Of a stretch of DNA of 35,854 nucleotides, positions 3,332 through 31,763 are shown one piece after another; position 1 is the stretch's first letter; every line of letters starts with the position of its first letter. The notes below the pieces were generated by a model. The model was not told where the DNA came from. It saw nothing but the letters and a program-made list of their open reading frames with translations, and ran no database searches. This stretch comes from a virus, in IMG/VR virus record IMGVR_UViG_3300044617_001092, positions 1 through 35,854 of that record. One strand, given 5' to 3'. Made by a program: the position numbers and the translations under genes.

Positions 3332-3667
3332 ATGACCGTAAACGTCAGCAACATCATTCCGGCCAAGACCGCTGAGAACACCCAGACGACGCAGTACACC
3401 TCGACGGGTGTGCAGACGATCATCGACAAGTTTACGGCGACCAACTACAGCGCGGCCGCGGCGACGATCAGCGTCAACCTCGTGACCGCTGCGGGCAGCG
3501 CGGGCAACGATAACCTGATCGTCAAGACCAAAACGCTCCAGCCGTCGGAGACCTATACCTTCCCGGAACTGGTCGGCCACGTCCTGCCGCTGAACGGCTT
3601 TATCTCGACCATCGCCGGCACGGCGTCGGCCATCAACATCCGCGCCTCGGGTCGCCTCGTCAGCTAA
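3332..3667 (+). CDS. Small structural-type protein of unknown function
   Basis: The 111-residue product is rich in Thr, Ala, Val and Asn and appears to be an all-beta protein: alternating hydrophobic stretches such as SVNLVTAAG, TYTFPELVG and LNGFISTIAG, and no membrane segment or catalytic motif. It starts 10 nt after the tailspike stop, with AAGGA a few bases upstream of ATG. Its stop overlaps the next gene as TAATG. Proteins of this appearance are often found beside tail fibres or capsid decoration genes of short-tailed phages; that role is inferred from location only. Confidence 0.6.
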   Translation: MTVNVSNIIPAKTAENTQTTQYTSTGVQTIIDKFTATNYSAAAATISVNLVTAAGSAGNDNLIVKTKTLQPSETYTFPELVGHVLPLNGFISTIAGTASAINIRASGRLVS

Positions 3668-4131
3668 TGGACATTGTCGTCCGCCCTCTGACGGAAGACG
3701 ATCTTCCTGCGTACATCGAGATGGCCGCAGCGTTCCATACCGACTGTCCTGTCAACGATCTTATCCCGTTCGACCCGGAAGGCACCGCCGACTTCTTGAC
3801 GGGCATCATGAGCAACGAGAACGTCCGTGCGGTGCTGGCGGAACTGGACGGCGTCCCGGTCGGTATCGCAGGGGCGGCGCTCTACCCTATGTACTTCAGC
3901 CCGGACAGTCACGTCGTGCAAGAGTTGTGGTGGTGGCTGTCGCCCGACCACCGCGGCAGTGGCGCGGCGCAGCGGATGTACAAGGACATTGAAAACTGGG
4001 CGAAGGATAGTGGCGCGGTCGCATTGTTTATGATAGCATTGCACAACGACAACGTTGACCGCATGGCGAAGATGTACGGGCGTTCGGGATTTAGACCTAT
4101 GGAACGCACCTTTGTGAAAGGCTTGTTGTAA
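3667..4131 (+). CDS. GNAT-family N-acetyltransferase
   Basis: The 154-residue product has the layout of a GNAT acetyltransferase, which moves an acetyl group from acetyl-CoA to an amine. The N-terminal strand (IVVRPLTEDDLPAYIEMA) is typical of the fold. The central strand ELWWWLSPDHRGSGAA carries the acetyl-CoA pyrophosphate-binding R/HRGxGxA loop at about residues 95-101. The C-terminal part contains the usual N-x-x-x-x-x-MYGRSGFRPMER stretch (about 127-146). Genes like this recur among virion genes of short-tailed phages, and the target is unknown. Start and stop overlap the neighbouring genes by single-base TAATG junctions, so translation is coupled. Confidence 0.85.
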   Translation: MDIVVRPLTEDDLPAYIEMAAAFHTDCPVNDLIPFDPEGTADFLTGIMSNENVRAVLAELDGVPVGIAGAALYPMYFSPDSHVVQELWWWLSPDHRGSGAAQRMYKDIENWAKDSGAVALFMIALHNDNVDRMAKMYGRSGFRPMERTFVKGLL

Positions 4132-13842: not shown

Positions 13843-15825
13843 ATGAGTGAGGCATCCGTGGCTATTCTTTGGATCGATTTCGAGACGCGCAGCCGGTGCA
13901 ATCTGCCTGAGCGCGGCGTCTACAACTACGCGATGGACCTGAGCACCGAGGTGCTGTGTATGTCCTACGCGTTCGACGACGGCGAGGTGCGGACGTGGCT
14001 CCCTAGCGAGCCTTTCCCGCAGGACGTGGCCAAGCACAAGGGCCAGATACGCGCGCACAACGCCGCGTTCGAGCGCCTGATCTTCTGGTATGTGCTCCAG
14101 TGCGACTTTAAGCTGGAGCAGTTCTACTGCACCGCTGCGCAGGCCCGCGCCAACTGCGCGCCGGGCAGCCTAGAGGACGTGGGCCGCTTCGCTGGCGCAG
14201 GGATGCGCAAGGACCACCGCGGCAACCAACTCATTCGTCTGTTGTCCATCCCGCAGGCTGACGGGTCGTTCCGCGCGGACGAAGACCTGATGGCCGAGAT
14301 GGTCCAATACTGCGAACAGGATGTCCGCGCCATGCGCGCGATCAGTCAGGCACTGCGGGAGTTGTCGGCCGATGAGTTGCGAGACTATCATGTTAATGAG
14401 CGCATCAACGACCGCGGTGTCCTGCTTGATAAACCTCTGGCTCTGGCGGCGGTGCGTTACGCTGAACAAGAGGCTGTCGAGATACAAGACCTCGTTCGTG
14501 AAATTACTGAAGGCGAAATCACGTCGGTCCGCAGCCCGAAGATGCGCCAATGGGTTCTCGACCGCGTCGGCCCCCAAGCGCTAAGACTGGCCACGGTTCA
14601 CAAGGACGGCGAAGCCAAGCTATCTATCGACAAGAACGTGCGCGCCAACCTGCTGGCGCTGGCGGAGGAAAACGCGGATGAAGTCCCGGCGGAAGTGGCA
14701 GACGTTATCCAATGCGCAGACGACCTGTGGGCATCGTCTGTGGCGAAGTTCAGCCGTGCGGCGGCGCTGGCTGATGAGGAAGATAGCCGAGTTAGAGGTG
14801 CGTTCGTATTTGCAGGAGGCAGCGCTACTGGCCGTGCTTCATCATTTGGACTCCAAGTCCACAACTTCCCCCGCCGCTGCGCCGACGACCCTGCACTAGC
14901 CCGCGAGGCTATGGTGCGCGGCCATAAGGTCGTGCCTAAGTTCGGCCCCCGCGTGACGGACGTGCTGAAGGGTATGCTGCGCCCCGCGCTGATGGCTGCG
15001 CCGGGCAAGGTGCTGGTCGTGGCCGACTGGGCCGCCATCGAAGCGCGGGTGACGCCGTGGGCGTCGAACAGCCAGAGCGGCCGCGCCAAGCTGGACATCT
15101 TCGCCAAGGGCGAGGACGTTTACAAGCACAACGCCGCCGCGACCTTCCGCGTGCCCTACGCCGAGGTTGACAAGGATCAGCGCCAGATCGGCAAGGTGCA
15201 AGAGTTGGCGTGCGGCTTCGCCGGCGGCGTGGGTGCCTTCGCGTCGATGGGCCGCATCTACAACATCATCCTGTCCGAGAGCGAGAGCAAGCGCATGGTC
15301 GATGCGTGGCGCCGGGCGAACGGCTGGTCGGTGCCCTACTGGTCGAAGCTGGAGCATTCCTATCTGGCCGCCATGCGCAACCCCGGTCACGAGTTCACCG
15401 CCGGCCGGGTCACATATTTATTCGACAAACAGCATCTATGGTATGCCCTGCCGAGCGGACGTGTGCTATGTTATCCTTTCGCCTGCTTCAATGACGAGGG
15501 CGATCTGACCTACGCGAAGGCGTCGTGGAAGCCGTCAGCCGACGCGAAGGAATGGCCGCGCGCCCGTCTCTGGCGCGGTCTGGCCTGTGAGAACATTACG
15601 CAAGCCGTGGCCAACGACCTGTTGCGCCACACGCTGAAGCGGCTGGACGAGGAGGGGCTGGACGTGGTGCTTCATGTGCATGACGAAGTGGTGCTGGAAG
15701 TGCCCGAGGCGGACGCGGACGACGCGGCCGCACGGCTCGTGGAGATCATGTGTCAACCGCCGGAATGGGCCAAGGGGCTGCCGCTGAACGCGGAAGTCGC
15801 CACAATGGTCAGATATGGCAAGTGA
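13843..15825 (+). CDS. Family A DNA polymerase with 3'-5' exonuclease
   Basis: The 660-residue product contains both domains of a replicative phage Pol I. Exonuclease motifs are ILWIDFETRS (residues 8-17), IRAHNAAFERL (about 67-77) and YCEQDVRAM (about 155-164; DEDDy type). Polymerase motif A is VVADWAAIEAR (about 392-402), motif B is IGKVQELACGFAGG (about 449-462) and motif C is HVHDEVVLEVP (about 611-621). No 5'-3' exonuclease domain is present. The residue after Asp in motif A is Trp instead of the more usual Tyr. ATG 13843 has a weak ribosome site, while GTG 13858 has GAGG 5 nt upstream, so the true start may be 13858 (five residues shorter). Confidence 0.95.
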   Translation: MSEASVAILWIDFETRSRCNLPERGVYNYAMDLSTEVLCMSYAFDDGEVRTWLPSEPFPQDVAKHKGQIRAHNAAFERLIFWYVLQCDFKLEQFYCTAAQARANCAPGSLEDVGRFAGAGMRKDHRGNQLIRLLSIPQADGSFRADEDLMAEMVQYCEQDVRAMRAISQALRELSADELRDYHVNERINDRGVLLDKPLALAAVRYAEQEAVEIQDLVREITEGEITSVRSPKMRQWVLDRVGPQALRLATVHKDGEAKLSIDKNVRANLLALAEENADEVPAEVADVIQCADDLWASSVAKFSRAAALADEEDSRVRGAFVFAGGSATGRASSFGLQVHNFPRRCADDPALAREAMVRGHKVVPKFGPRVTDVLKGMLRPALMAAPGKVLVVADWAAIEARVTPWASNSQSGRAKLDIFAKGEDVYKHNAAATFRVPYAEVDKDQRQIGKVQELACGFAGGVGAFASMGRIYNIILSESESKRMVDAWRRANGWSVPYWSKLEHSYLAAMRNPGHEFTAGRVTYLFDKQHLWYALPSGRVLCYPFACFNDEGDLTYAKASWKPSADAKEWPRARLWRGLACENITQAVANDLLRHTLKRLDEEGLDVVLHVHDEVVLEVPEADADDAAARLVEIMCQPPEWAKGLPLNAEVATMVRYGK

Positions 15826-15838
15826 GAAGGGAAACGCG

Positions 15839-18178
15839 ATGAGTGAGGATCGCAAAGACTTTATCGACTACATCACAGGCTTGACGGACGTGGACGGCGA
15901 GACCGTCCTGCTGCTCAAGCAGAAGCCTAAGAAGGATGGTGAGGGCAACATCATCTACCACGGCGACGGCGCTCCAAAGGCGGTCTTCCCCGCGTTCCTG
16001 CCCGACAAGGCGCGCATCAAGGACGGCGAGGCGTGGTATGTGAACACCGGCTCGTTTGTCGTTGACCGCTTCGAGGACGGCAAGCCAAGCGCGAAGGCTG
16101 AGAATTGCGAATACGTCCTGTTCATGATGCTGGACGACATCGGCACCAAGTCGAAAGAGCCGCCGCTGCCGCCGACGTGGATCATGGAGACCAGCGCCGG
16201 CTCGTTCCAGTGGGGCTACGCCTTCAGCCAGCAGCCGACCAAGCACGAGTTCACCGCCGCCATCAAGGCCATCGCCGAGGCGGGCTACACCGACCCCGGC
16301 GCGACCAACGCCGTGCGCAACTGCCGCATCCCCGGCAGCGTCAATCTGAAGCAGGGCCGTGACCTGTTCCCCGCGCGGCTGGTCGAGTTCCACACTGACC
16401 GCGAGTATACGCTGGCCGAGATTTGCGAAGCGCTGGACGTGACGCCTGCCGAGCCAGACACGGCCGAGTTCCGCCGCATCGCCATCCGCGACACCGGCGG
16501 CGACACGGTGCTGCAATGGCTGTCCGACAACAACCTTGTGCTGACCAAGGTCAACAATGAGGGCTGGTGCGGCGTGGTCTGCCCCAACCATGCCGAGCAT
16601 ACGGACGGCAACATCGAAGGCCGTTACAAGCCGCTGGATCGCTCCTACTGCTGCTATCACGGCCACTGCCAGCACATTGACAGCCGCACCTTCCTTGAGT
16701 GGGTCGCCGAGAACGACGGCCCGAAGGTGACGCCCGGCTTGCGCGAGGAGTTGCTGACCGAGCGGCTGCGCCTGATGAGCGAGAAAATCCAGCCGACCGA
16801 CGCCTTCCCTGACGAGGCGGCCGCGCGCATCCGTGAGGTCGAGCGCAAGGAAGCCGGGCGGCTGGAGCGTTCGGAGTGGTTCGATCGGTTCGCCTACGTC
16901 CAGTCGGACGATGCCTATTTCGACATGGTGACGCGGCGCGAGGTGGCGCGGGGTGTGTTCAACGCGCTGTTCCGCCACGTCGATTGCCGGTCGGTGCACA
17001 ACAAGAAGAAGCCGGTGCAGGCGGCCACCTATTTCGACGAGCGGCGGCAGGAATACGGCGCGAAGGCGCTGATCGGCGTGACGTTCGCGCCGGGCGAAGA
17101 TGTGCTGGTGACGCGCGACGGGCTGGTCTACGGCAATCGGTGGGTCAACCATCGCCCCGACATGAGCGGTTCCGATCAGATGTCCGACGCCGACGTGGAG
17201 CGCTGGCTTGACCACTGCCGCGTGCTGGTGCCCGACGATAAAGAGTTGGCGCACGTCCTCAACGTTATGGCCTACAAGGTGCAGCACCCCAACGTGAAGA
17301 TCAATCACGCGGTGCTGCACGGCGGCGACGAGGGCAGCGGCAAGGACACCATGTGGGCGCCGTTCCTGTGGGCCATCGGCGGGCCGCACCAGCACAACAG
17401 GTCGATCATTGAGACCGGCGGTCTGGACAGCCAGTGGGGTTATGGTCTTGAGGCCGAGGTGGTCATCCTCAACGAGTTGAAGGAACCCGAGGCGCGCGAG
17501 CGCCGGGCGCTGGCTAACAAGCTAAAGCCGATCATCGCCGCACCGCCGGAGACGATCTCCATCAACCGCAAGGGGCTGCACCCTTACGAGATGCTCAACC
17601 GCTTGCAGGTGATTGCCTTTACCAACGACCCGTTGCCGATCACGATACCGACGCAGGATCGCCGCTGGTTCTGCCTGTGGTCGCACGCGCCGCGCATGGC
17701 CGAGGACGCAGGGCCGGCGCTGTGGGCGTGGTATAAGTCAGGCGGCTTCGAAAAGGTCGCCGCGTGGCTGTGGCAGCGCGACGTGACGCGCTTCAACCCA
17801 GCGGGCGCACCGCCGGTGACGGAATGGAAACTCAACATGGTCGAGCATGGCCTGTCGGTTGCCGAGAGCTATCTGGTGGACATGCTGCGCGGGCGCACGA
17901 GCGTGTTTTCGCGGGGCGTTATTGGTGGGCCGTTCCACAAGGTGTGCGACACCATCGCCAGCAGTCTCCCGGCTGGCACGAAAGTGCCGCAGGCGGCGCT
18001 GCTGCACGCCTTCAAGGAAGCGGGCTGGATCGACTGCGGTCGGATCGCGTCGGTCGAATACGCGACAAAGAAACAAATCTTCGCCGCGCCGGACATGCTT
18101 ACCAAGCACAGCAAGAGCGAATTGCGCCGCATGGTGGAATATGTTGCACCTTCCGACGGCGGTGTGGTAAAGACCTGA
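15839..18178 (+). CDS. Primase-helicase (RepB-like primase region plus DUF5906 helicase)
   Basis: The 779-residue product joins an N-terminal primase-like part (about 1-210; AFLPDKARIKDGEAWYVN, LFMMLDDIG, NCRIPGSVNLK) to a superfamily 3-like helicase. A Cys/His cluster (WCGVVCPNHAEHT, then YCCYHGHCQH; about 240-275) may bind zinc. The ATPase part has Walker A GGDEGSGKDT (about 495-504), Walker B VVILNEL (about 540) and a sensor-like VIAFTNDP (about 590), as in DUF5906/D5-like helicases. It would unwind DNA and prime synthesis for the polymerase encoded just before it. ATG 15839 is preferred over the earlier frame start at 15815, which overlaps the polymerase stop, because AAGGG lies 7 nt upstream. 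Confidence 0.85.
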   Translation: MSEDRKDFIDYITGLTDVDGETVLLLKQKPKKDGEGNIIYHGDGAPKAVFPAFLPDKARIKDGEAWYVNTGSFVVDRFEDGKPSAKAENCEYVLFMMLDDIGTKSKEPPLPPTWIMETSAGSFQWGYAFSQQPTKHEFTAAIKAIAEAGYTDPGATNAVRNCRIPGSVNLKQGRDLFPARLVEFHTDREYTLAEICEALDVTPAEPDTAEFRRIAIRDTGGDTVLQWLSDNNLVLTKVNNEGWCGVVCPNHAEHTDGNIEGRYKPLDRSYCCYHGHCQHIDSRTFLEWVAENDGPKVTPGLREELLTERLRLMSEKIQPTDAFPDEAAARIREVERKEAGRLERSEWFDRFAYVQSDDAYFDMVTRREVARGVFNALFRHVDCRSVHNKKKPVQAATYFDERRQEYGAKALIGVTFAPGEDVLVTRDGLVYGNRWVNHRPDMSGSDQMSDADVERWLDHCRVLVPDDKELAHVLNVMAYKVQHPNVKINHAVLHGGDEGSGKDTMWAPFLWAIGGPHQHNRSIIETGGLDSQWGYGLEAEVVILNELKEPEARERRALANKLKPIIAAPPETISINRKGLHPYEMLNRLQVIAFTNDPLPITIPTQDRRWFCLWSHAPRMAEDAGPALWAWYKSGGFEKVAAWLWQRDVTRFNPAGAPPVTEWKLNMVEHGLSVAESYLVDMLRGRTSVFSRGVIGGPFHKVCDTIASSLPAGTKVPQAALLHAFKEAGWIDCGRIASVEYATKKQIFAAPDMLTKHSKSELRRMVEYVAPSDGGVVKT

Positions 18179-18244: not shown

Positions 18245-18436
18245 TTATACGAGCCTCGTTACTGTCGTCTGGCCGTTTTCTGTCAGGCACTGGTAGAAGC
18301 GCCCATGCCTCACGCCGTATTGGCTGGCGTTGCTACAGATGCGCTTGGCGGCGGCGCGGTCGGGCGCTGGCAGGGTGACGGTCTCACCCACGGCCATGTG
18401 CCTGAAGGGATAGGTCGGCGGTCGTCCTACGGGCAT
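18245..18436 (-). CDS. Small protein, last gene of the minigene operon
   Basis: The 63-residue product has an ordered-looking pattern (RPPTYPFRHMAVGETVTLPA, then AAAKRICSNASQYGVRHGRF) resembling small phage proteins that pair a beta hairpin with a DNA-binding-like helix. It is not assigned to a named family. Its start overlaps the upstream gene by 10 nt, and its stop lies 4 bases from the bidirectional terminator. Confidence 0.65.
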   Translation of the reverse strand: MPVGRPPTYPFRHMAVGETVTLPAPDRAAAKRICSNASQYGVRHGRFYQCLTENGQTTVTRLV

Positions 18437-18618
18437 AGTTCGATCACCTCAATGTCGTCGATGTGCGCGACTGCGCGGCGTTTGTCGCGGGTGACGCGCC
18501 GCGTGGCGACGGTCGCCGCCCGCTCAGGGTCAGGCGCGAGGGCACGCACTGAGGTCGTCCGGCGGTGGCCGAAAGGCGTGGTGTAGGTCACGCGGCAGAA
18601 ATAGTGGAAATCGCGCAT
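18427..18618 (-). CDS. Small basic protein of the minigene operon
   Basis: The 63-residue product starts at ATG 18618 (MRDFHYFCRVTYTTPFGHRR) and is Arg-rich in its middle (ATVATRRVTRDKRRAVAH), ending in the acidic stretch DDIEVIELCP. The frame is open back to 18843, but that part is a shadow of two other small genes. It overlaps the upstream Cys-rich gene by 31 nt, the longest overlap in this operon. Function is unknown. Confidence 0.6.
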   Translation of the reverse strand: MRDFHYFCRVTYTTPFGHRRTTSVRALAPDPERAATVATRRVTRDKRRAVAHIDDIEVIELCP

Positions 18619-18758
18619 CGCTCTTGCTCCCTCTGCTTCAGCTTGTCCTTCGATTGGCAGTCGGCGCGCAGGCAGCCGCGCACACCTGCCGGGGCGATGT
18701 CGGCGCGGCAGTGGTCGCACCATATGGCCTGCGGGTGTGGCTTCAGTTGACGGGTCAT
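18588..18758 (-). CDS. Cys-rich small protein, possible zinc ribbon
   Basis: The 56-residue product carries CDHC (Cys14, Cys17), Cys29 and Cys34, the spacing of a small zinc-binding ribbon, followed by a Lys/Gln/Glu-rich helix (CQSKDKLKQREQER). It starts with a 4-nt ATGA overlap with the stop of the upstream gene. Small zinc proteins of phages often bind DNA, RNA or a host protein; which applies here is unknown. The C-terminal 10 residues are encoded in the overlap with the next gene. Confidence 0.6.
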   Translation of the reverse strand: MTRQLKPHPQAIWCDHCRADIAPAGVRGCLRADCQSKDKLKQREQERCAISTISAA

Positions 18759-18925
18759 GGTTCGGCCCTTCTAGCAAGCATCGCGTCGGCCGCGTCGTAA
18801 GCGTCGTGCGCTTCAAAACTCCAGTCGGTAGCGCAACGATCATCTTCGGTCATGGTGGCGGCGATGCCCGCGAGGGCTTGACCGGCGAACCAGTCACGCA
18901 AGGTCATGTCTTTGACGTTTGTCAC
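18755..18925 (-). CDS. Small LRDWFAGQALAG-type phage protein
   Basis: The 56-residue product contains MTLRDWFAGQALAGIAA near the start and YDAADAMLARRAEP at the end. This is a recognisable pattern of tiny, widespread phage proteins of unknown function. GTG 18925 overlaps the upstream stop as GTGA; an internal ATG six codons later is an alternative. It ends in an ATGA overlap with the next gene. The pattern repeated in unrelated phages makes this the best supported gene of the minigene operon. Confidence 0.75.
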   Translation of the reverse strand: MTNVKDMTLRDWFAGQALAGIAATMTEDDRCATDWSFEAHDAYDAADAMLARRAEP

Positions 18926-19080
18926 GCGGCGACCCTCCGCAGTAGCACTTCCATGCGGGGCAGCATCAGCAGCCCTTGCGAGCGTGCCTCGGCGGCGGCT
19001 TCCAGCTTGATCTCGCGTTCGAGCGCGGCGAGTTCGCGTTTCATGCGCGCGTAGCGGCGCAGTTTGGCGTCTAGTTTCAT
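18922..19080 (-). CDS. Short coiled-coil protein of the minigene operon
   Basis: The 52-residue product is basic and strongly helical (KLRRYARMKRELAALEREIK, then LEAAAEARSQG) and is a likely short coiled coil. ATG 19080 overlaps the upstream stop as ATGA, so the open frame extending to 19143 is not needed. No family was recognised. Confidence 0.6.
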   Translation of the reverse strand: MKLDAKLRRYARMKRELAALEREIKLEAAAEARSQGLLMLPRMEVLLRRVAA

Positions 19081-19304
19081 TTCAGATGCTCCTTGCTCTC
19101 TATCTTCATTGCGACTTGTCTGTAGCCGTGCTTGCGCAGCCACTTGATGATGGCTTCACGCTCGGCCTTCACGGCGTTGTCGATCTCAATCTGGCGGGCT
19201 GCGTGTTGCGCGTCGAGGCTGTGTTCAAACCACAGCACTTCATCGCCGTTGGATACCCAGTATTTCTCGTCACGCTCCGACCAGTTGACCTTTGGTGCTG
19301 TCAT
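19077..19304 (-). CDS. Small protein of the minigene operon, 75 residues
   Basis: The product starts at ATG 19304 (MTAPKVNWSERDEKYWVSNG) and continues with an aromatic strand (EVLWFEHSLDAQHAA) and a charged helix (AVKAEREAIIKWLRKHGYRQ). It looks like a folded alpha/beta mini-domain. Both ends overlap neighbours by 4 nt (ATGA). GGAGAG upstream of the ATG could serve as the ribosome site. Function is unknown. Confidence 0.65.
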   Translation of the reverse strand: MTAPKVNWSERDEKYWVSNGDEVLWFEHSLDAQHAARQIEIDNAVKAEREAIIKWLRKHGYRQVAMKIESKEHLK

Positions 19305-19480
19305 TTCGTCTCTCCTAATGCGGCGCGGTGATATTCGAGCGCGGCCTCTCCGACACGCTTCCACGCGGCCATTGTGTAAGCGCATGACGGTGCGCGCAGT
19401 TCAGGTGGCAACTGGTCGGGCCTGACATTCAGCCAAGCCGCCAGCATCGCCAGTTCGAGGGGTGTGCGTTCCTCACTCAC
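19301..19480 (-). CDS. Small protein of the minigene operon, 59 residues
   Basis: Starts at GTG 19480 (GTGA overlap with the upstream stop) and ends in an ATGA overlap with the next gene. The product reads as a helical protein: SEERTPLELAMLAAWLNVRP, then LRAPSCAYTMAAWKRVGEAA. It falls just under a 60-residue ORF cut-off and is easily missed. Function is unknown. Confidence 0.6.
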   Translation of the reverse strand: MSEERTPLELAMLAAWLNVRPDQLPPELRAPSCAYTMAAWKRVGEAALEYHRAALGETK

Positions 19481-19602
19481 CAGTCGTTTTCCTCTTCTAT
19501 TAGGTCGGCCATATGCTCACGCATCCATGCGCGGCGGCGTATCTCGGCCATGTAGTCGGCTTGCCGCTCGGCCCACTCGGCTAGGTAGCGGTCGGGGATC
19601 AC
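19477..19602 (-). CDS. Short charged protein, 41 residues
   Basis: GTG 19602 overlaps the upstream stop as GTGA and has the best Shine-Dalgarno sequence of this operon, AAGGAGG, 7 nt upstream. The product is helical and rich in Arg, Glu and Trp (RYLAEWAERQADYMAEIRRR, ending DLIEEENDW). The frame continues upstream to 19725 but runs through the gene before it. Function is unknown. Confidence 0.6.
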   Translation of the reverse strand: MIPDRYLAEWAERQADYMAEIRRRAWMREHMADLIEEENDW

Positions 19603-19769
19603 TGGTCGCCTCCTTTGCGGGCCAGAACCACGCAGGTAAGGCCCCAGACCATCGCTTCGACAATCGCAGTGTCGCGCAGCGACCATCCGAACGCCTTGGT
19701 GCAAAACAGATGGGCCAAAAGCCAAACACTCATGCCGACGGTAAAACGAACAATTCGGTTGTCGGTCAT
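19599..19769 (-). CDS. Small two-segment membrane protein
   Basis: The 56-residue product, starting at ATG 19769, has two hydrophobic stretches, about residues 8-22 (RFTVGMSVWLLAHLF) and 35-50 (AIVEAMVWGLTCVVLA), with a short polar link and a basic end. It is predicted to sit in the inner membrane. It is followed by another membrane peptide gene and coupled to both neighbours by ATGA/GTGA overlaps. Superinfection exclusion or host envelope interference are possible roles but unproven. Confidence 0.6.
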   Translation of the reverse strand: MTDNRIVRFTVGMSVWLLAHLFCTKAFGWSLRDTAIVEAMVWGLTCVVLARKGGDQ

Positions 19770-19879
19770 GTCAGGCTCCATACGATGAGTGCCCCCAGCG
19801 CGATCAGATACGCGCCCAGCAGGCAGAGAATGACGGCCCAAGCGATGCTGGCCTCTCGGTCAAAAGGTTCGTGGGACAT
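19766..19879 (-). CDS. Single-segment membrane peptide, 37 residues
   Basis: ATG 19879 gives MSHEPFDREASIAWAVILCL and continues through one membrane segment (about residues 12-33, ending LGALIVWSLT). The charged N-terminus suggests it faces the cytoplasm. It overlaps the next gene by ATGA and the tiny upstream ORF by a TAATG junction; a GGAGG lies a short way upstream. Function is unknown. Confidence 0.55.
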   Translation of the reverse strand: MSHEPFDREASIAWAVILCLLGAYLIALGALIVWSLT

Positions 19880-19941
19880 TAGCCCAAATCCTCCAGAATG
19901 AGCGCCAGCGCTGCCAGCGCCAGCGCAAACACTACGGCCAT
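19879..19941 (-). CDS. Putative 20-residue hydrophobic peptide
   Basis: ATG 19941 overlaps the upstream stop as TGATG, and the TAA at 19881-19879 overlaps the next ATG as TAATG. The peptide (MAVVFALALAALALILEDLG) is almost wholly hydrophobic and would span a membrane once. The exact fit between neighbours is the main evidence. It may be only a coupling leader. Confidence 0.4.
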   Translation of the reverse strand: MAVVFALALAALALILEDLG

Positions 19942-20183
19942 CACGCATCGGCCTCGGCGTCATAGAACGCCTTCAGGTCGGCCATCAGCACATCCACACG
20001 CGCGTCCAGTTCATCGACTGTCGCGCGCAGGTCGGCATTCTCGGCCTCAGCGTTTTCGAGTTCTTCCAGCCGTTCGCCTAGGGCGATGGCCAGTTCGTGC
20101 GGGCAGTCCCGCGCGGCTTCGATCAGTGTGCGGGTCGAGAGCGCGCGCCAATCGGTGCGGTCATGGGTTGGGTTGTAGGTCAT
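19941..20183 (-). CDS. Coiled-coil protein of the minigene operon, 80 residues
   Basis: The product begins MTYNPTHDRTDWRALSTRTL and contains a long acidic heptad-like helix (LEELENAEAENADLRATVDE, then LDARVDVLMADLKAFYDAE), a clear coiled coil. It probably forms dimers. ATG 20183 overlaps the upstream stop by 4 nt. No known family is recognised. Confidence 0.7.
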   Translation of the reverse strand: MTYNPTHDRTDWRALSTRTLIEAARDCPHELAIALGERLEELENAEAENADLRATVDELDARVDVLMADLKAFYDAEADA

Positions 20184-20398
20184 GCGTCGGTTTCCTCTTC
20201 ATAATGGCTTTTGACCATGTCGAGCACGAGCGAAACGCTCGCCTGTCCCTCGTAGGTGTCGAGCAGGTGCAACAGGTCGGTGATCAGGTCGGTGATGTCC
20301 TCATCAGGCGCGTTGAGCGTTCCACGGGCGTTGCAGTAGGCGTTGAGCGCCTCGCCCGCGAGGTAGACGCGTTGGGCGTGTGCGTCAGTGTCAGTCAT
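20180..20398 (-). CDS. Small acidic helical protein, 72 residues
   Basis: ATG 20398 starts MTDTDAHAQRVYLAGEALNA; the middle is acidic (DEDITDLITDLLHLLDTYEG) and the end is KSHYEEETDA. Its helices and negative charge would suit a DNA mimic or a protein-binding role, but this is speculation. It overlaps the upstream gene by 8 nt and the next by 4 nt. The frame running back to 20524 lies in the upstream gene and is not supported. Confidence 0.65.
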   Translation of the reverse strand: MTDTDAHAQRVYLAGEALNAYCNARGTLNAPDEDITDLITDLLHLLDTYEGQASVSLVLDMVKSHYEEETDA

Positions 20399-20609
20399 TG
20401 GGAATTCCTTGTGCTTTGTTAAGCGCGGCGTCCGCTTGTGCGTGCAGTTTGTCCAACAAGCGCCAAGCGCTCGGCGGTGCGTAGCCATGCACGGCGAGCG
20501 CGTGCGTCCATGTGGCGAGGTCATCCAGCGCGGTGAACAGGTCGGTCAATGCGTCCGCCTGCAAGCGCGCCACTTCGACGTATAGCTTTAGCTGTTTATT
20601 GTCGGCCAT
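20391..20609 (-). CDS. Small helical protein, 72 residues
   Basis: The product (MADNKQLKLYVEVARLQADA, then LTDLFTALDDLATWTHALAV) is predicted to be nearly all helix, with a Trp/His-containing turn and no cysteine. A 24-nt gap separates it from the gene upstream, one of only three real gaps in this operon. No function recognised. Confidence 0.65.
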   Translation of the reverse strand: MADNKQLKLYVEVARLQADALTDLFTALDDLATWTHALAVHGYAPPSAWRLLDKLHAQADAALNKAQGIPND

Positions 20610-20633
20610 GCTGTTTGCTCCCGGTGGTGAATG

Positions 20634-20840
20634 TTAAAGCGTTGGGTTGGGTATGCGCCCGGCGATCATGCCGAGATATTCTTCGATCAGTTCGTTATCG
20701 TTCCATTTGTCGTAGCGCTTGCGCAGCGCTTCAGCGGCGAGGTCTTCCAGATCATCGCTAGTCAGCACATCCATCCATTGATCTATGATATCGTCGATCA
20801 TGGCGGCGCGGTCGGTGCTCGGGTTCATGTTATCCGTCAT
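20634..20840 (-). CDS. Small acidic protein, 68 residues
   Basis: The product is acidic and helical (MIDDIIDQWMDVLTSDDLED, then EEYLGMIAGRIPNPTL). ATG 20840 shares one base with the TAA of the upstream gene (TAATG). No motif or family was recognised. Confidence 0.65.
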   Translation of the reverse strand: MTDNMNPSTDRAAMIDDIIDQWMDVLTSDDLEDLAAEALRKRYDKWNDNELIEEYLGMIAGRIPNPTL

Positions 20841-21025
20841 TACAGTTCATCCTCTTCTATTGCGTAGGCCCAGCCGTCGCGCACGATACGCGCGGCGGCC
20901 GTTTCGGCGTGGTGAATGTCCGTGAAGCGCGCAGCGCACGCTTCGCAGGTGGTGGTGCGCCCGTCGGCGGCTAGGTAATGCTCGCCATCCTCGGCGTTCC
21001 ATAGCGTGACGATGTAGGTGTGCAT
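20840..21025 (-). CDS. Small protein with CxxC, 61 residues
   Basis: The product starts with a beta-like segment (MHTYIVTLWNAEDGEHYLAA), carries CEAC (Cys27, Cys30) and an His-His pair (FTDIHHAETAAAR), and ends DGWAYAIEEDEL. The CxxC and nearby histidines could bind a metal. GGAG lies a few bases upstream of ATG 21025. Function is unknown. Confidence 0.65.
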   Translation of the reverse strand: MHTYIVTLWNAEDGEHYLAADGRTTTCEACAARFTDIHHAETAAARIVRDGWAYAIEEDEL

Positions 21026-21052
21026 GGGTGTGCTCTCCTGTTGGTGTTGGTG

Positions 21053-21274
21053 TCAGGCTAGGGGTTGGCGCAGGGTTGCGTTGAAATGCTGCAACCATTG
21101 CAGCGAGGTGTAGATTTCAACGCCCGGCGTGTTGCGGCTGGCGATCCGTTCCGCGAATGCGCGGTCCCACGTTTCGAGCACGGCTGTGCCGTTGTCAGCG
21201 ATGATCCAGCTATTGCAGCGATCGCAAAGCGCGGGGACGCCATTGACGTATTCGAGTGTGGTGGTGTCAGTCAT
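21053..21274 (-). CDS. Small protein with CxxC, 73 residues
   Basis: ATG 21274 gives MTDTTTLEYVNGVPALCDRC, with CDRC (Cys17, Cys20) and conserved-looking aromatic residues (VEIYTSLQWLQHF). It resembles a mini zinc-ribbon or a small host-interaction protein. AGGAGCAACAGACC precedes the ATG, a good ribosome site. The longer frame back to 21328 overlaps the upstream micro-ORF. No family was recognised. Confidence 0.65.
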   Translation of the reverse strand: MTDTTTLEYVNGVPALCDRCNSWIIADNGTAVLETWDRAFAERIASRNTPGVEIYTSLQWLQHFNATLRQPLA

Positions 21275-21427: not shown

Positions 21428-21493
21428 CATAAAAAGTGTGACAAAATGCGTGAAAAGCCAAATGACCCAGAAATGTCGCAGATTTTATGTCGT

Positions 21494-21513
21494 TACTTAC
21501 ACGAGTGTAAGTA
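21494..21513. promoter_or_regulatory. Perfect 20-bp palindrome, candidate operator 1
   Basis: TACTTACAC and GTGTAAGTA flank GA, giving perfect 9-bp arms. Half-site-like AGTGTGAC and AGTGTTAC stretches lie nearby (about 21435 and 21526). It lies about 70 bp upstream of the putative leftward -35 box and inside the CTGGGTCAT array, so it is a good candidate for a regulator dimer site. Confidence 0.6.
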
Positions 21514-21675
21514 GTGCAACCGAAAGTGTTACATTCTGGGTAGTGCTGGGTAGAATTCTGGGTCATGAAAATACGGGCGATGACCCAGAGAAAATGCGCG
21601 GCGTCGCAACGGCTTAGCTATAACATTGGCTATCTGGGTCATTAGAAAGATAACAACCCAGAGATTGTATAGTTG

Positions 21676-21692
21676 TTAAGAATGGTTCTTAA
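21676..21692. promoter_or_regulatory. Perfect palindrome next to a TATAAT box, candidate operator 2
   Basis: TTAAGAA-TGG-TTCTTAA is a 17-bp palindrome with 7-bp arms. It is followed 11 nt later by TATAAT (21704-21709), the best -10 sequence in the region, and TTAAGA (21676-21681) could act as a -35 for the overlapping TATATT at 21699-21704. The rightward transcript would run toward the terminase genes. Because ATTATAAT is self-complementary, direction is uncertain. Confidence 0.5.
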
Positions 21693-21732
21693 GTAGCGTA
21701 TATTATAATGAGGTGGGCGCAATCAGATGACC

Positions 21733-21747
21733 TAGATTGCCAATCTA
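21733..21747. promoter_or_regulatory. Perfect 15-bp palindrome, candidate operator 3
   Basis: TAGATTG-C-CAATCTA has perfect 7-bp arms around one base. It is overlapped by a wider inverted pair, TTGCCAA (21737-21743) and TTGGCAA (21760-21766), and is followed by another CTGGGTCAT copy at 21781. It is likely part of the same control region. Confidence 0.5.
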
Positions 21748-21827
21748 CCCCGTATCCCTTTGGCAACGCTACGGAAAACGCTGGGTCATTCTGCAAAATG
21801 GATTGCCCAGCCCCAACCCAGCGCAGA

Positions 21828-21845
21828 CGAACCGAAACCGGTTCG
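21828..21845. promoter_or_regulatory. Small perfect hairpin in the control region
   Basis: CGAACCG (21828-21834) pairs with CGGTTCG (21839-21845) around the loop AAAC. A T-arm-like sequence follows it, but no tRNA can be folded. It might be a structural element of the control region or of a rightward leader RNA. Confidence 0.35.
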
Positions 21846-21965
21846 AGTTCGGTCGCCACGGCTACGCATTACGTTCGCGTTCTGTTCCTTATTGAAATAT
21901 TATTGCGCAGTCGCCCGGGCGTTTGCGCAATGGGCGCGCGCATCCGCGCCAGCCGAAAAGGTCAC

Positions 21966-21989
21966 GCCCAGATTGCCCAGACTGCCCAG
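21966..21989. repeat. Three tandem GCCCAG units at 9-bp spacing
   Basis: GCCCAG occurs at 21966-21971, 21975-21980 and 21984-21989. On the other strand they read CTGGGC, close to the core of the CTGGGTCAT repeat, so they may be weaker sites for the same protein. Confidence 0.45.
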
Positions 21990-22052: not shown

Positions 22053-22135
22053 CCCCCCGGGGGGCCGACGAGGGCGTGACTGTCACGGGCACGGTCCGCA
22101 AACAATTTTTTTATTTTTTATTTTTTATTTTTTTT
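22053..22135. promoter_or_regulatory. GC palindromes followed by a phased T-tract (possible unwinding element)
   Basis: CCCCCCGGGGGG (22053-22064) and CGTGAC-T-GTCACG (22075-22087) precede a 30-nt run at 22106-22135 made of T7 A T6 A T6 A T8, with A residues at 22113, 22120 and 22127, exactly 7 nt apart. In a GC-rich genome this is striking. Possible roles are the melting element of an origin, a bent or packaging (pac) site beside terminase, or a terminator for rightward transcripts from the control region. Confidence 0.5.
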
Positions 22136-22179
22136 GTCCCATCCCGACAGGTCGCATGGCTTTACGGTATAGGAGCAAC

Positions 22180-22332
22180 ATGGTGCGACGCTCCAGCGCA
22201 TCCATGTCGGGGGGCCGGGCGGCGCAATCGGGGGCGCCGTCCGGCACTTGCCCTAGTGCACGAAACATATTATCGTGCGGTCATGACCTTCTACTCACTG
22301 CCATTCACGCCCGAGCGCGTCGAAGCCACTGA
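22180..22332 (+). CDS. Possible leader ORF overlapping the start of terS
   Basis: ATG 22180 is preceded by AGGAG with 4 nt spacing, a better ribosome site than that of terS itself. The 50-codon frame (MVRRSSASMSGGRAAQSGAP, ending HARARRSH) has a Ser/Arg-rich composition with no clear fold and overlaps terS by 50 nt in another frame. It may be a translation leader rather than a protein gene. Upstream, 22136-22179 shows nothing else definite. Confidence 0.3.
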   Translation: MVRRSSASMSGGRAAQSGAPSGTCPSARNILSCGHDLLLTAIHARARRSH

Positions 22333-22780
22333 GGCGCGTCTGGAAGCCATCTATGAGGCGGCTAAGTTTGGCCTCAAGGGCGACAGCCTTGCGCTGCGCG
22401 CCGGCCTCACCCCGGCGCAGTATCGCCGGCTGCAAGAGTTTGACCCGCTGGTTGAGATGGCGGAACTCAAGGGCCGCGCTGACGGCGAGTGGATGGCGGC
22501 CAAGACGCTGCATGAGGCGGCGGCTGACGGCGACGCCAAGGCCGCGCTCGACATCCTGCGGCACCAGCATGGGTGGGTCGCCAAGCAGCAGGTTGACGTT
22601 AACATCGACCAGCAGATCAGCGTGCTTGGCGCGCTGGAGCGGGCGCAGACCCGCGTCATTGAGGGGCTGTACGAAGACGTGCCCCAGCTAGAGGACAACA
22701 GCAGTGCAGCAACCCCAGTACTCAGCGCAAGACGAGATGGAGATCATGGCGCGGCTGTGGTCGCCGACGATCAAGGATGA
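22283..22780 (+). CDS. terS: Terminase small subunit
   Basis: The 165-residue product sits directly before the large terminase. Its N-terminal half reads as a helix-turn-helix (ARLEAIYEAAKFGLKGDSLA, then LRAGLTPAQYRRLQEFDP), a long helical centre follows (AKTLHEAAADGDAKAALDIL), then HQHGWVAKQQVDVNID before a charged C-terminus. This layout and the GWVAK(Q)-type segment are usual for small terminases that recognise packaging DNA. ATG 22283 lacks a good ribosome site; GTG 22256 in frame is an alternative. It overlaps terL by 77 nt. The control region just upstream may contain the pac site. Confidence 0.8.
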   Translation: MTFYSLPFTPERVEATEARLEAIYEAAKFGLKGDSLALRAGLTPAQYRRLQEFDPLVEMAELKGRADGEWMAAKTLHEAAADGDAKAALDILRHQHGWVAKQQVDVNIDQQISVLGALERAQTRVIEGLYEDVPQLEDNSSAATPVLSARRDGDHGAAVVADDQG

Positions 22781-31358: not shown

Positions 31359-31763
31359 ATGGCTCTTCCTAACGGTGCCGGCGGTTATCAGGTCGGCGAT
31401 GGCAACCTCAACGAAGCCACTCTTGGCGTGCAGGCCATTCCGGTGGCCTACACCGCAGCGGCGACGCTGACCCCGCTTGATCTTGAGCAGGGTCTGGTCG
31501 TCTACACCGCCAGCGGCAACAACAACCTTGCTCTTCCGGCAGTCACCGGCGCGACCGGCGTTGACGCTCGCATCAGCAGCGCCAAGGTCGGTTCGTGCTT
31601 CGACTTCTCGCTGGTTTGCACCAGCACCGGCGTCGGTACGCTGACGGCCGGTACGGGCTGGACGCTGGTCGGCGTGGGCACTGGCGAAGCCGCCAAGGCT
31701 GTTCGTTTCCGCGCCGTCAAGACCGGCGACGGCACCTACACCCTGTACCGCATCGCCAACTAA
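31359..31763 (+). CDS. Putative capsid decoration protein
   Basis: The 134-residue product is rich in Gly, Thr, Ala and Val and predicted all-beta (VVYTASGNNNLALPAVTGAT, then GVGTLTAGTGWTLVG). Its high codon bias resembles that of coat, and it has hairpins on both sides, suggesting high expression. Proteins of this type after the coat gene often decorate the capsid. The family is not certain. A purine-rich GAAAGG lies upstream of ATG. Confidence 0.65.
   Translation: MALPNGAGGYQVGDGNLNEATLGVQAIPVAYTAAATLTPLDLEQGLVVYTASGNNNLALPAVTGATGVDARISSAKVGSCFDFSLVCTSTGVGTLTAGTGWTLVGVGTGEAAKAVRFRAVKTGDGTYTLYRIAN

Follow-up and report, generated by a model that had tools for sequence, protein, structure and literature searches.

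The 35,854-nucleotide IMG/VR record IMGVR_UViG_3300044617_001092, which is a whole virus record and is referred to here as the window, carries an array of short repeats in the divergent gap separating a leftward cassette of tiny genes from terS. To judge from its sequence and from its counterparts in related phages, the array is very probably an iteron-type replication origin, read through the winged helix at the C terminus of the phage-encoded SF3 primase-helicase. An earlier sequence-only reading had proposed a candidate origin or master operator bound by a dedicated phage protein; the analyses below support a dedicated array and its reading as an origin, with the winged helix, by covariation, as the likeliest reader.

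Repeat Array Upstream of terS

The 9-mer CTGGGTCAT occurs five times in the window, in both orientations and always within 21462-21789 (21462-, 21558+, 21580-, 21634+, and 21781+), as compared with a mean of 0.11 and a maximum of 1 in 100 dinucleotide shuffles; since the window covers the whole record, there is no exact copy elsewhere in it. When one mismatch is allowed, 10 sites are found in the window against a shuffle mean of 5.6, so isolated near copies outside the array carry no meaning; the near copies reported in the sequence-only reading are indeed present in the array. The arrangement described in that reading was recovered throughout: CTGGGT recurs at 21536, 21546, and 21558 (steps of 10 and 12 bases), the repeats at 21558 and 21580 form an inverted pair, and three GCCCAG units stand at 9-base steps. 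A site model built from relatives only (ATGACCCAGA / ATTGCCCAGA) gives seven window matches above 14.1 bits, all in the array, the top match outside it scoring 14.1 bits. Many short noncoding repeats, well in excess of chance and found nowhere else in the replicon, are as expected of an iteron origin, as is an AT-rich element beside or between the iterons; the inverted repeat TTAAGAA-TGG-TTCTTAA lies in the AT-rich segment of the window. The gap at 21.4-22.28 kb, which had been described as geneless, yielded no conserved gene.

A palindrome, TACTTACAC-GA-GTGTAAGTA, lies at 21496-21515 within the left iteron cluster; it is not one of the iterons and has the appearance of an operator to which a dimeric regulator would bind.

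Arrays in Related Phages

Relatives were collected in a TerS scan that gave 80 loci, followed by three further viral-contig scans and one cellular-genome scan, and the enlarged set comprises 68 non-redundant loci in which primase and array are both present. The CTGGGTCAT-type 9-mer is present in few relatives. In nearly all those with enough upstream sequence, a short-motif array is found at the same place, ~0.3-0.8 kb upstream of terS, each phage type having its own motif (GCCTAG/A, GACGTC(C), GACCTAC(C), RCCCAC, RCCCAG, AACCGCC, CTTGAC/GACAA, and others). Absence of the repeat from relatives with the same genes, which the sequence-only reading had named as refuting a dedicated array, is therefore observed for the 9-mer but not for the array, which keeps its place with a different motif. 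An AT-rich 50-mer (70-90% AT) is found in relatives, with site clusters on both sides in most loci; the flanking clusters often face opposite ways (<< AT >>), and in many relatives the right-hand side of the AT-rich segment carries 2-3 units, all in one direction, at 9-base steps. The window fits this plan less tidily than most relatives.

Phage DSL-LC05 (OR003940.1) shares TerL and synteny with the group, a palindromic array of ACCCACTGGGT/TGACCCAC lies in its corresponding gap (reverse-complement 3600-4120), and its primase has no detectable similarity to that of the window group. These observations fit an origin that has possibly stayed at a fixed site there while its initiator was replaced.

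Palindromes resembling TTGACGTTAACGTCAA are repeated in the gap upstream of terS in some relatives (e.g. L025 and L076) and are distinct from the phage-specific motif.

Covariation of the Array Motif with Phage Proteins

Arrays were sorted by class words and by 6-mer spectra, an initial expectation-maximization motif search being too loose for classification. Among 761 variable columns of primase, TerS, and TerL in 48 loci, the top three motif predictors were primase columns 743, 745, and 748 in trimmed numbering, which correspond to open reading frame residues 745, 747, and 750. The same residues again lead in a second test with PolA and portal added (61 loci, 1,399 variable columns), with adjusted U of 0.44, 0.42, and 0.30, as compared with 0.19 for the best column of any other protein and 0.17 for the best TerS column; the best PolA, portal, TerS, or TerL column is less than half as informative as residues 745 and 747. 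Regression on unsupervised 6-mer array distances, which uses no class words, reveals a dependence on the wing (beta 0.50, P 0.001) and on the adjacent C-tail (0.26, P 0.001), and none on the primase body, TerS (P 0.66), or TerL.

In leave-one-out nearest-neighbor prediction, eight wing residues give the motif class in 91% of cases, as compared with 40% for TerS, 41% for TerL, and 33% by chance; with near relatives barred, the values are 79% for the wing and 42% for TerS. The matrix of motif by wing group is near diagonal, the own motif occurring in 4-13 copies per array versus, with the exception of one short word, fewer than one in background. On a tree of the primase minus its winged helix, from which L224, L159, L075, and L268 were omitted (ambiguous, C terminus missing, or likely chimeric), the concordant fraction among phylogenetically independent pairs is 10.5 of 11 (p ~0.001), 7 of 7, and 6.7 of 7, with none opposed. 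Loci added after the first set mostly kept to the pattern already noted. Because terS adjoins the array in relatives and the primase gene ends 3-7 kb from it, simple linkage predicts the opposite ranking of the two proteins; linkage alone was thus rejected as the cause of the covariation, terS being nearer and yet less informative. At least 28 changes of origin specificity were counted on 61 loci, and on the best reading of these data the specificities of origin and initiator would have switched together many times in the group. Tentatively, we propose a wing code in which A/H-S-V/I corresponds to RCCCAG, G-S-T/S/V to GCCTAR, G-S-K to GACCTAC, H-S-R to RCCCAC, and N-S-K to GACGTC or GACAA/CTTGAC.

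Predicted Winged Helix of the Primase-Helicase

The primase-helicase matches PF16793 RepB_primase (27.3 bits; cut-off 24.3), PF19263 (DUF5906) above its cut-off, and PHROG primase families, and the primase alignment has a single sequence match in the PDB, over the helicase part, to a chain named Primase (6k9c/6k9e, E 1e-7); the SF3-type helicase is assigned on the basis of the PF19263, PHROG, and 6k9c matches. We take 6k9c/6k9e to be the C-terminal ring of the NrS-1 phage polymerase. The main text of the NrS-1 polymerase paper makes no mention of a winged helix or a replication origin, and the Tail fold is called novel there (PMC7102993).

AlphaFold2, given 38 aligned sequences that cover the C-terminal 118 residues, predicts a winged helix of topology H-E-H-H-E-wing-E, in which residues 745, 747, and 750 lie in the wing loop, flanked in the model by the strands at 70-75 and 84-88. 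Fold searches returned mostly winged-helix proteins with modest Z scores (best 7.3), and a sequence comparison of the winged helix with PDB chains gave no significant match.

One relative (L086, MW202483.1) has a small gene near the primase (31423-31719) that is annotated as "dnaa protein helix-turn-helix".

Proposed Mechanism and Alternatives

The sequence statistics establish the array, its uniqueness, its place and layout, and the covariation of its motif with the wing, and the fold is predicted; we infer physical binding, melting, priming, and origin activity in the following form. Many primase-helicase copies would bind the AT(G/T)(A/G)CCCAG iterons via their C-terminal winged helices, wing residues 745, 747, and 750 choosing the core bases of the iteron. 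The clusters of sites that flank the AT-rich segment would position helicase hexamers there, the SF3 motor would melt the AT-rich DNA, and the N-terminal primase domain would lay primers that the phage's own family-A DNA polymerase extends.

Several observations weigh against an origin read by the winged helix. The cumulative GC skew of the window peaks at 21717, weakly and with a sign opposite to that of the usual bidirectional origin; as such, it neither supports nor excludes an origin. The pLDDT (predicted local distance difference test) of the winged-helix model is only moderate (76), and the motif class words and residue groups were defined after viewing the data. The wing INSKEYQN occurs with two related motifs, which share a TGAC part, and ACVD wings (IACVDHPT; L120, L125, L156, and L267) accompany arrays that mix GCCTAR and RCCCAG, and these loci may be midway through a change of specificity. 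At locus L075, a GCCTAG array accompanies an NSK wing; this locus matches L258 (wing GSTEL) with 100% identity over ~1.25-5.5 kb and differs from it at both ends of the contig, which makes a chimera or recombinant the probable explanation.

TerS could bind the array beside its own gene as a packaging site (pac or cos-type), as in many phages, and the conserved position of the array upstream of terS in relatives would suit such a role. However, site specificity does not follow TerS in the column tests, the regression, or the nearest-neighbor prediction; TerS was rejected as the reader on these grounds, and we regard a packaging site as very improbable. Binding by a phage repressor or activator that controls divergent leftward and rightward promoters is quite unlikely: the array does lie in a divergent gap and overlaps sigma-70-like hexamers (4 found, 0.9 expected), but the master operator of the sequence-only reading is made less likely by the lack of any Pfam DNA-binding domain match in ten of the tiny leftward proteins and by a motif specificity that follows the replication protein. 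No candidate for a local repressor or lysogeny switch was found among the proteins tested. The primase could autoregulate transcription at the array as a side effect.

The covariation identifies only the probable reader of the motif, and the sign of the skew is not origin-like; both would also accord with a primase that binds the array to serve replication control or incompatibility (as at P4 crr), or else termination or partition, while the true origin lies at another site. Such a role is unlikely, given that the array is the sole such cluster in the genome and that its iteron/AT-rich layout matches known origins.

Genome Organization

The window represents a P22-like podovirus, with portal, P22-type coat, ejection protein, family-A polymerase, exonuclease, and primase-helicase. 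The primase-helicase gene (+) is followed by the leftward cassette, a gap of ~0.9 kb filled by the array, and terS and terL (+); the array is 3.3-3.8 kb downstream of the primase gene, across the cassette, and the terS start 4.1 kb (Table 1). TerS of the window has no family match. A T-rich tract lies at 22101-22138 upstream of terS, a similar GCAAACAATTTTTATTTTTTTGCA element is found in relatives, and in several of these a CACACTATAGTACGCCCA sequence immediately precedes terS. The scan of cellular genomes for the primase matched only two metagenome-assembled genome contigs, so no isolate host is known.

Table 1. Positions of the array, its sites, and neighboring genes in the window
Feature	Position	Strand	Remarks
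Primase-helicase, 787 aa, proposed initiator	15815..18178	+	PF16793, DUF5906/PF19263, predicted C-terminal winged helix
Codons 744-751 (IASVEYAT)	18044..18067	+	A745, V747, and A750 in predicted wing
Leftward cassette	18245..21274	-	Tiny, mostly unidentifiable genes between primase gene and array
Left iteron cluster	21462..21661	.	Sites in the next two rows
ATGACCCAG sites, left cluster	21462-21470 (+), 21558-21566 (-), 21580-21588 (+), 21634-21642 (-)		CTGGGTCAT on the opposite strand
ACCCAG cores, left cluster	21536-21541 (-), 21546-21551 (-), 21656-21661 (+)
AT-rich segment, candidate unwinding element	21660..21709	.	74% AT
Right iteron cluster	21727..21821	.	Sites in the next row
Sites, right cluster			ATGACCTAG 21727-21735 (+), ATGACCCAG 21781-21789 (-), ATTGCCCAG 21802-21810 (+), ACCCAG 21816-21821 (+)
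Three GCCCAG units	21966..21989	+	9-base steps (21966, 21975, 21984)
TerS	22283..22780	+	First gene right of array; named by position and synteny

Implications

Iteron origins read by winged-helix SF3 initiators are already known; as far as a non-exhaustive search of the open-access literature extends, three things are new: the origin of this phage group, the recurrent switching of origin and initiator together, and what seems to be a short code in the wing. For a widespread group of uncultured P22-like podoviruses, an origin and its likely initiator can be named from sequence alone. Dozens of initiator/origin pairs differ at few residues and few bases, and therefore both the change of winged-helix specificity and the reasons for origin change are directly testable. 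More tentatively, the origin/initiator pairs of the group may be orthogonal and form a natural library whose wing code is short and readable, and frequent switching of specificity might have been selected for incompatibility with co-infecting relatives, satellites, or origin-aimed nucleases.

Comparison with Known Systems

In P4 alpha, a primase and an SF3 helicase are joined in one protein to a winged helix at the C terminus, which binds origin repeats (Yeo et al., 2002; Ziegelin and Lanka, 1995; both according to PMC4234260). All of these features are present in one protein of the window phage (the SF3-type helicase, a primase domain, and a predicted C-terminal winged helix), in which binding of repeats would parallel that of P4 alpha at ori and crr. 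The primase of P4 alpha is of the bacterial TOPRIM type (PMC4234260), in contrast to the RepB type found here, and P4 is a satellite, whereas the window phage is a P22-like podovirus with its own PolA. A mode of action like that of P4 alpha and SaPI (Staphylococcus aureus pathogenicity island) Rep is the best-supported reading by analogy (PMC4234260; PMC7581432). Membership of the P4-alpha family is not claimed, because the primase is of another type and any homology between the winged helices is uncertain; the P4 origin-binding domain is not among the listed sequence or fold matches of the winged helix, which is no evidence against homology.

SaPI Rep and Cch2 of SCCmec (staphylococcal cassette chromosome mec) are likewise initiator helicases, and the isolated C-terminal domain of Cch2 binds the putative origin (PMC7581432). 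Their origins lie directly downstream of the helicase gene, unlike the array of the window, which lies across the leftward cassette. ORF904 of pRN1 and the replication proteins of Bordetella phages BIP-1 and BPP-1 also unite an archaeo-eukaryotic-type primase, an SF3 helicase, and a winged helix. In PMC4234260, a stem-loop origin was proposed for this set and the repeats of BIP-1 were considered not to be an origin, whereas iterons are favored in the window phage group, which argues that primase-SF3-winged-helix initiators can use iterons. A parallel to the covariation itself is RepA of the Vibrio cholerae PLE (phage-inducible chromosomal island-like element), for which PMC8263062 describes experimentally demonstrated cognate pairing with the origin, the initiator DNA-binding domain and iterons covarying and swapping as a module. 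In PLE, an unrelated RepA_N domain is exchanged as a whole, whereas here a few wing residues vary within a conserved domain.
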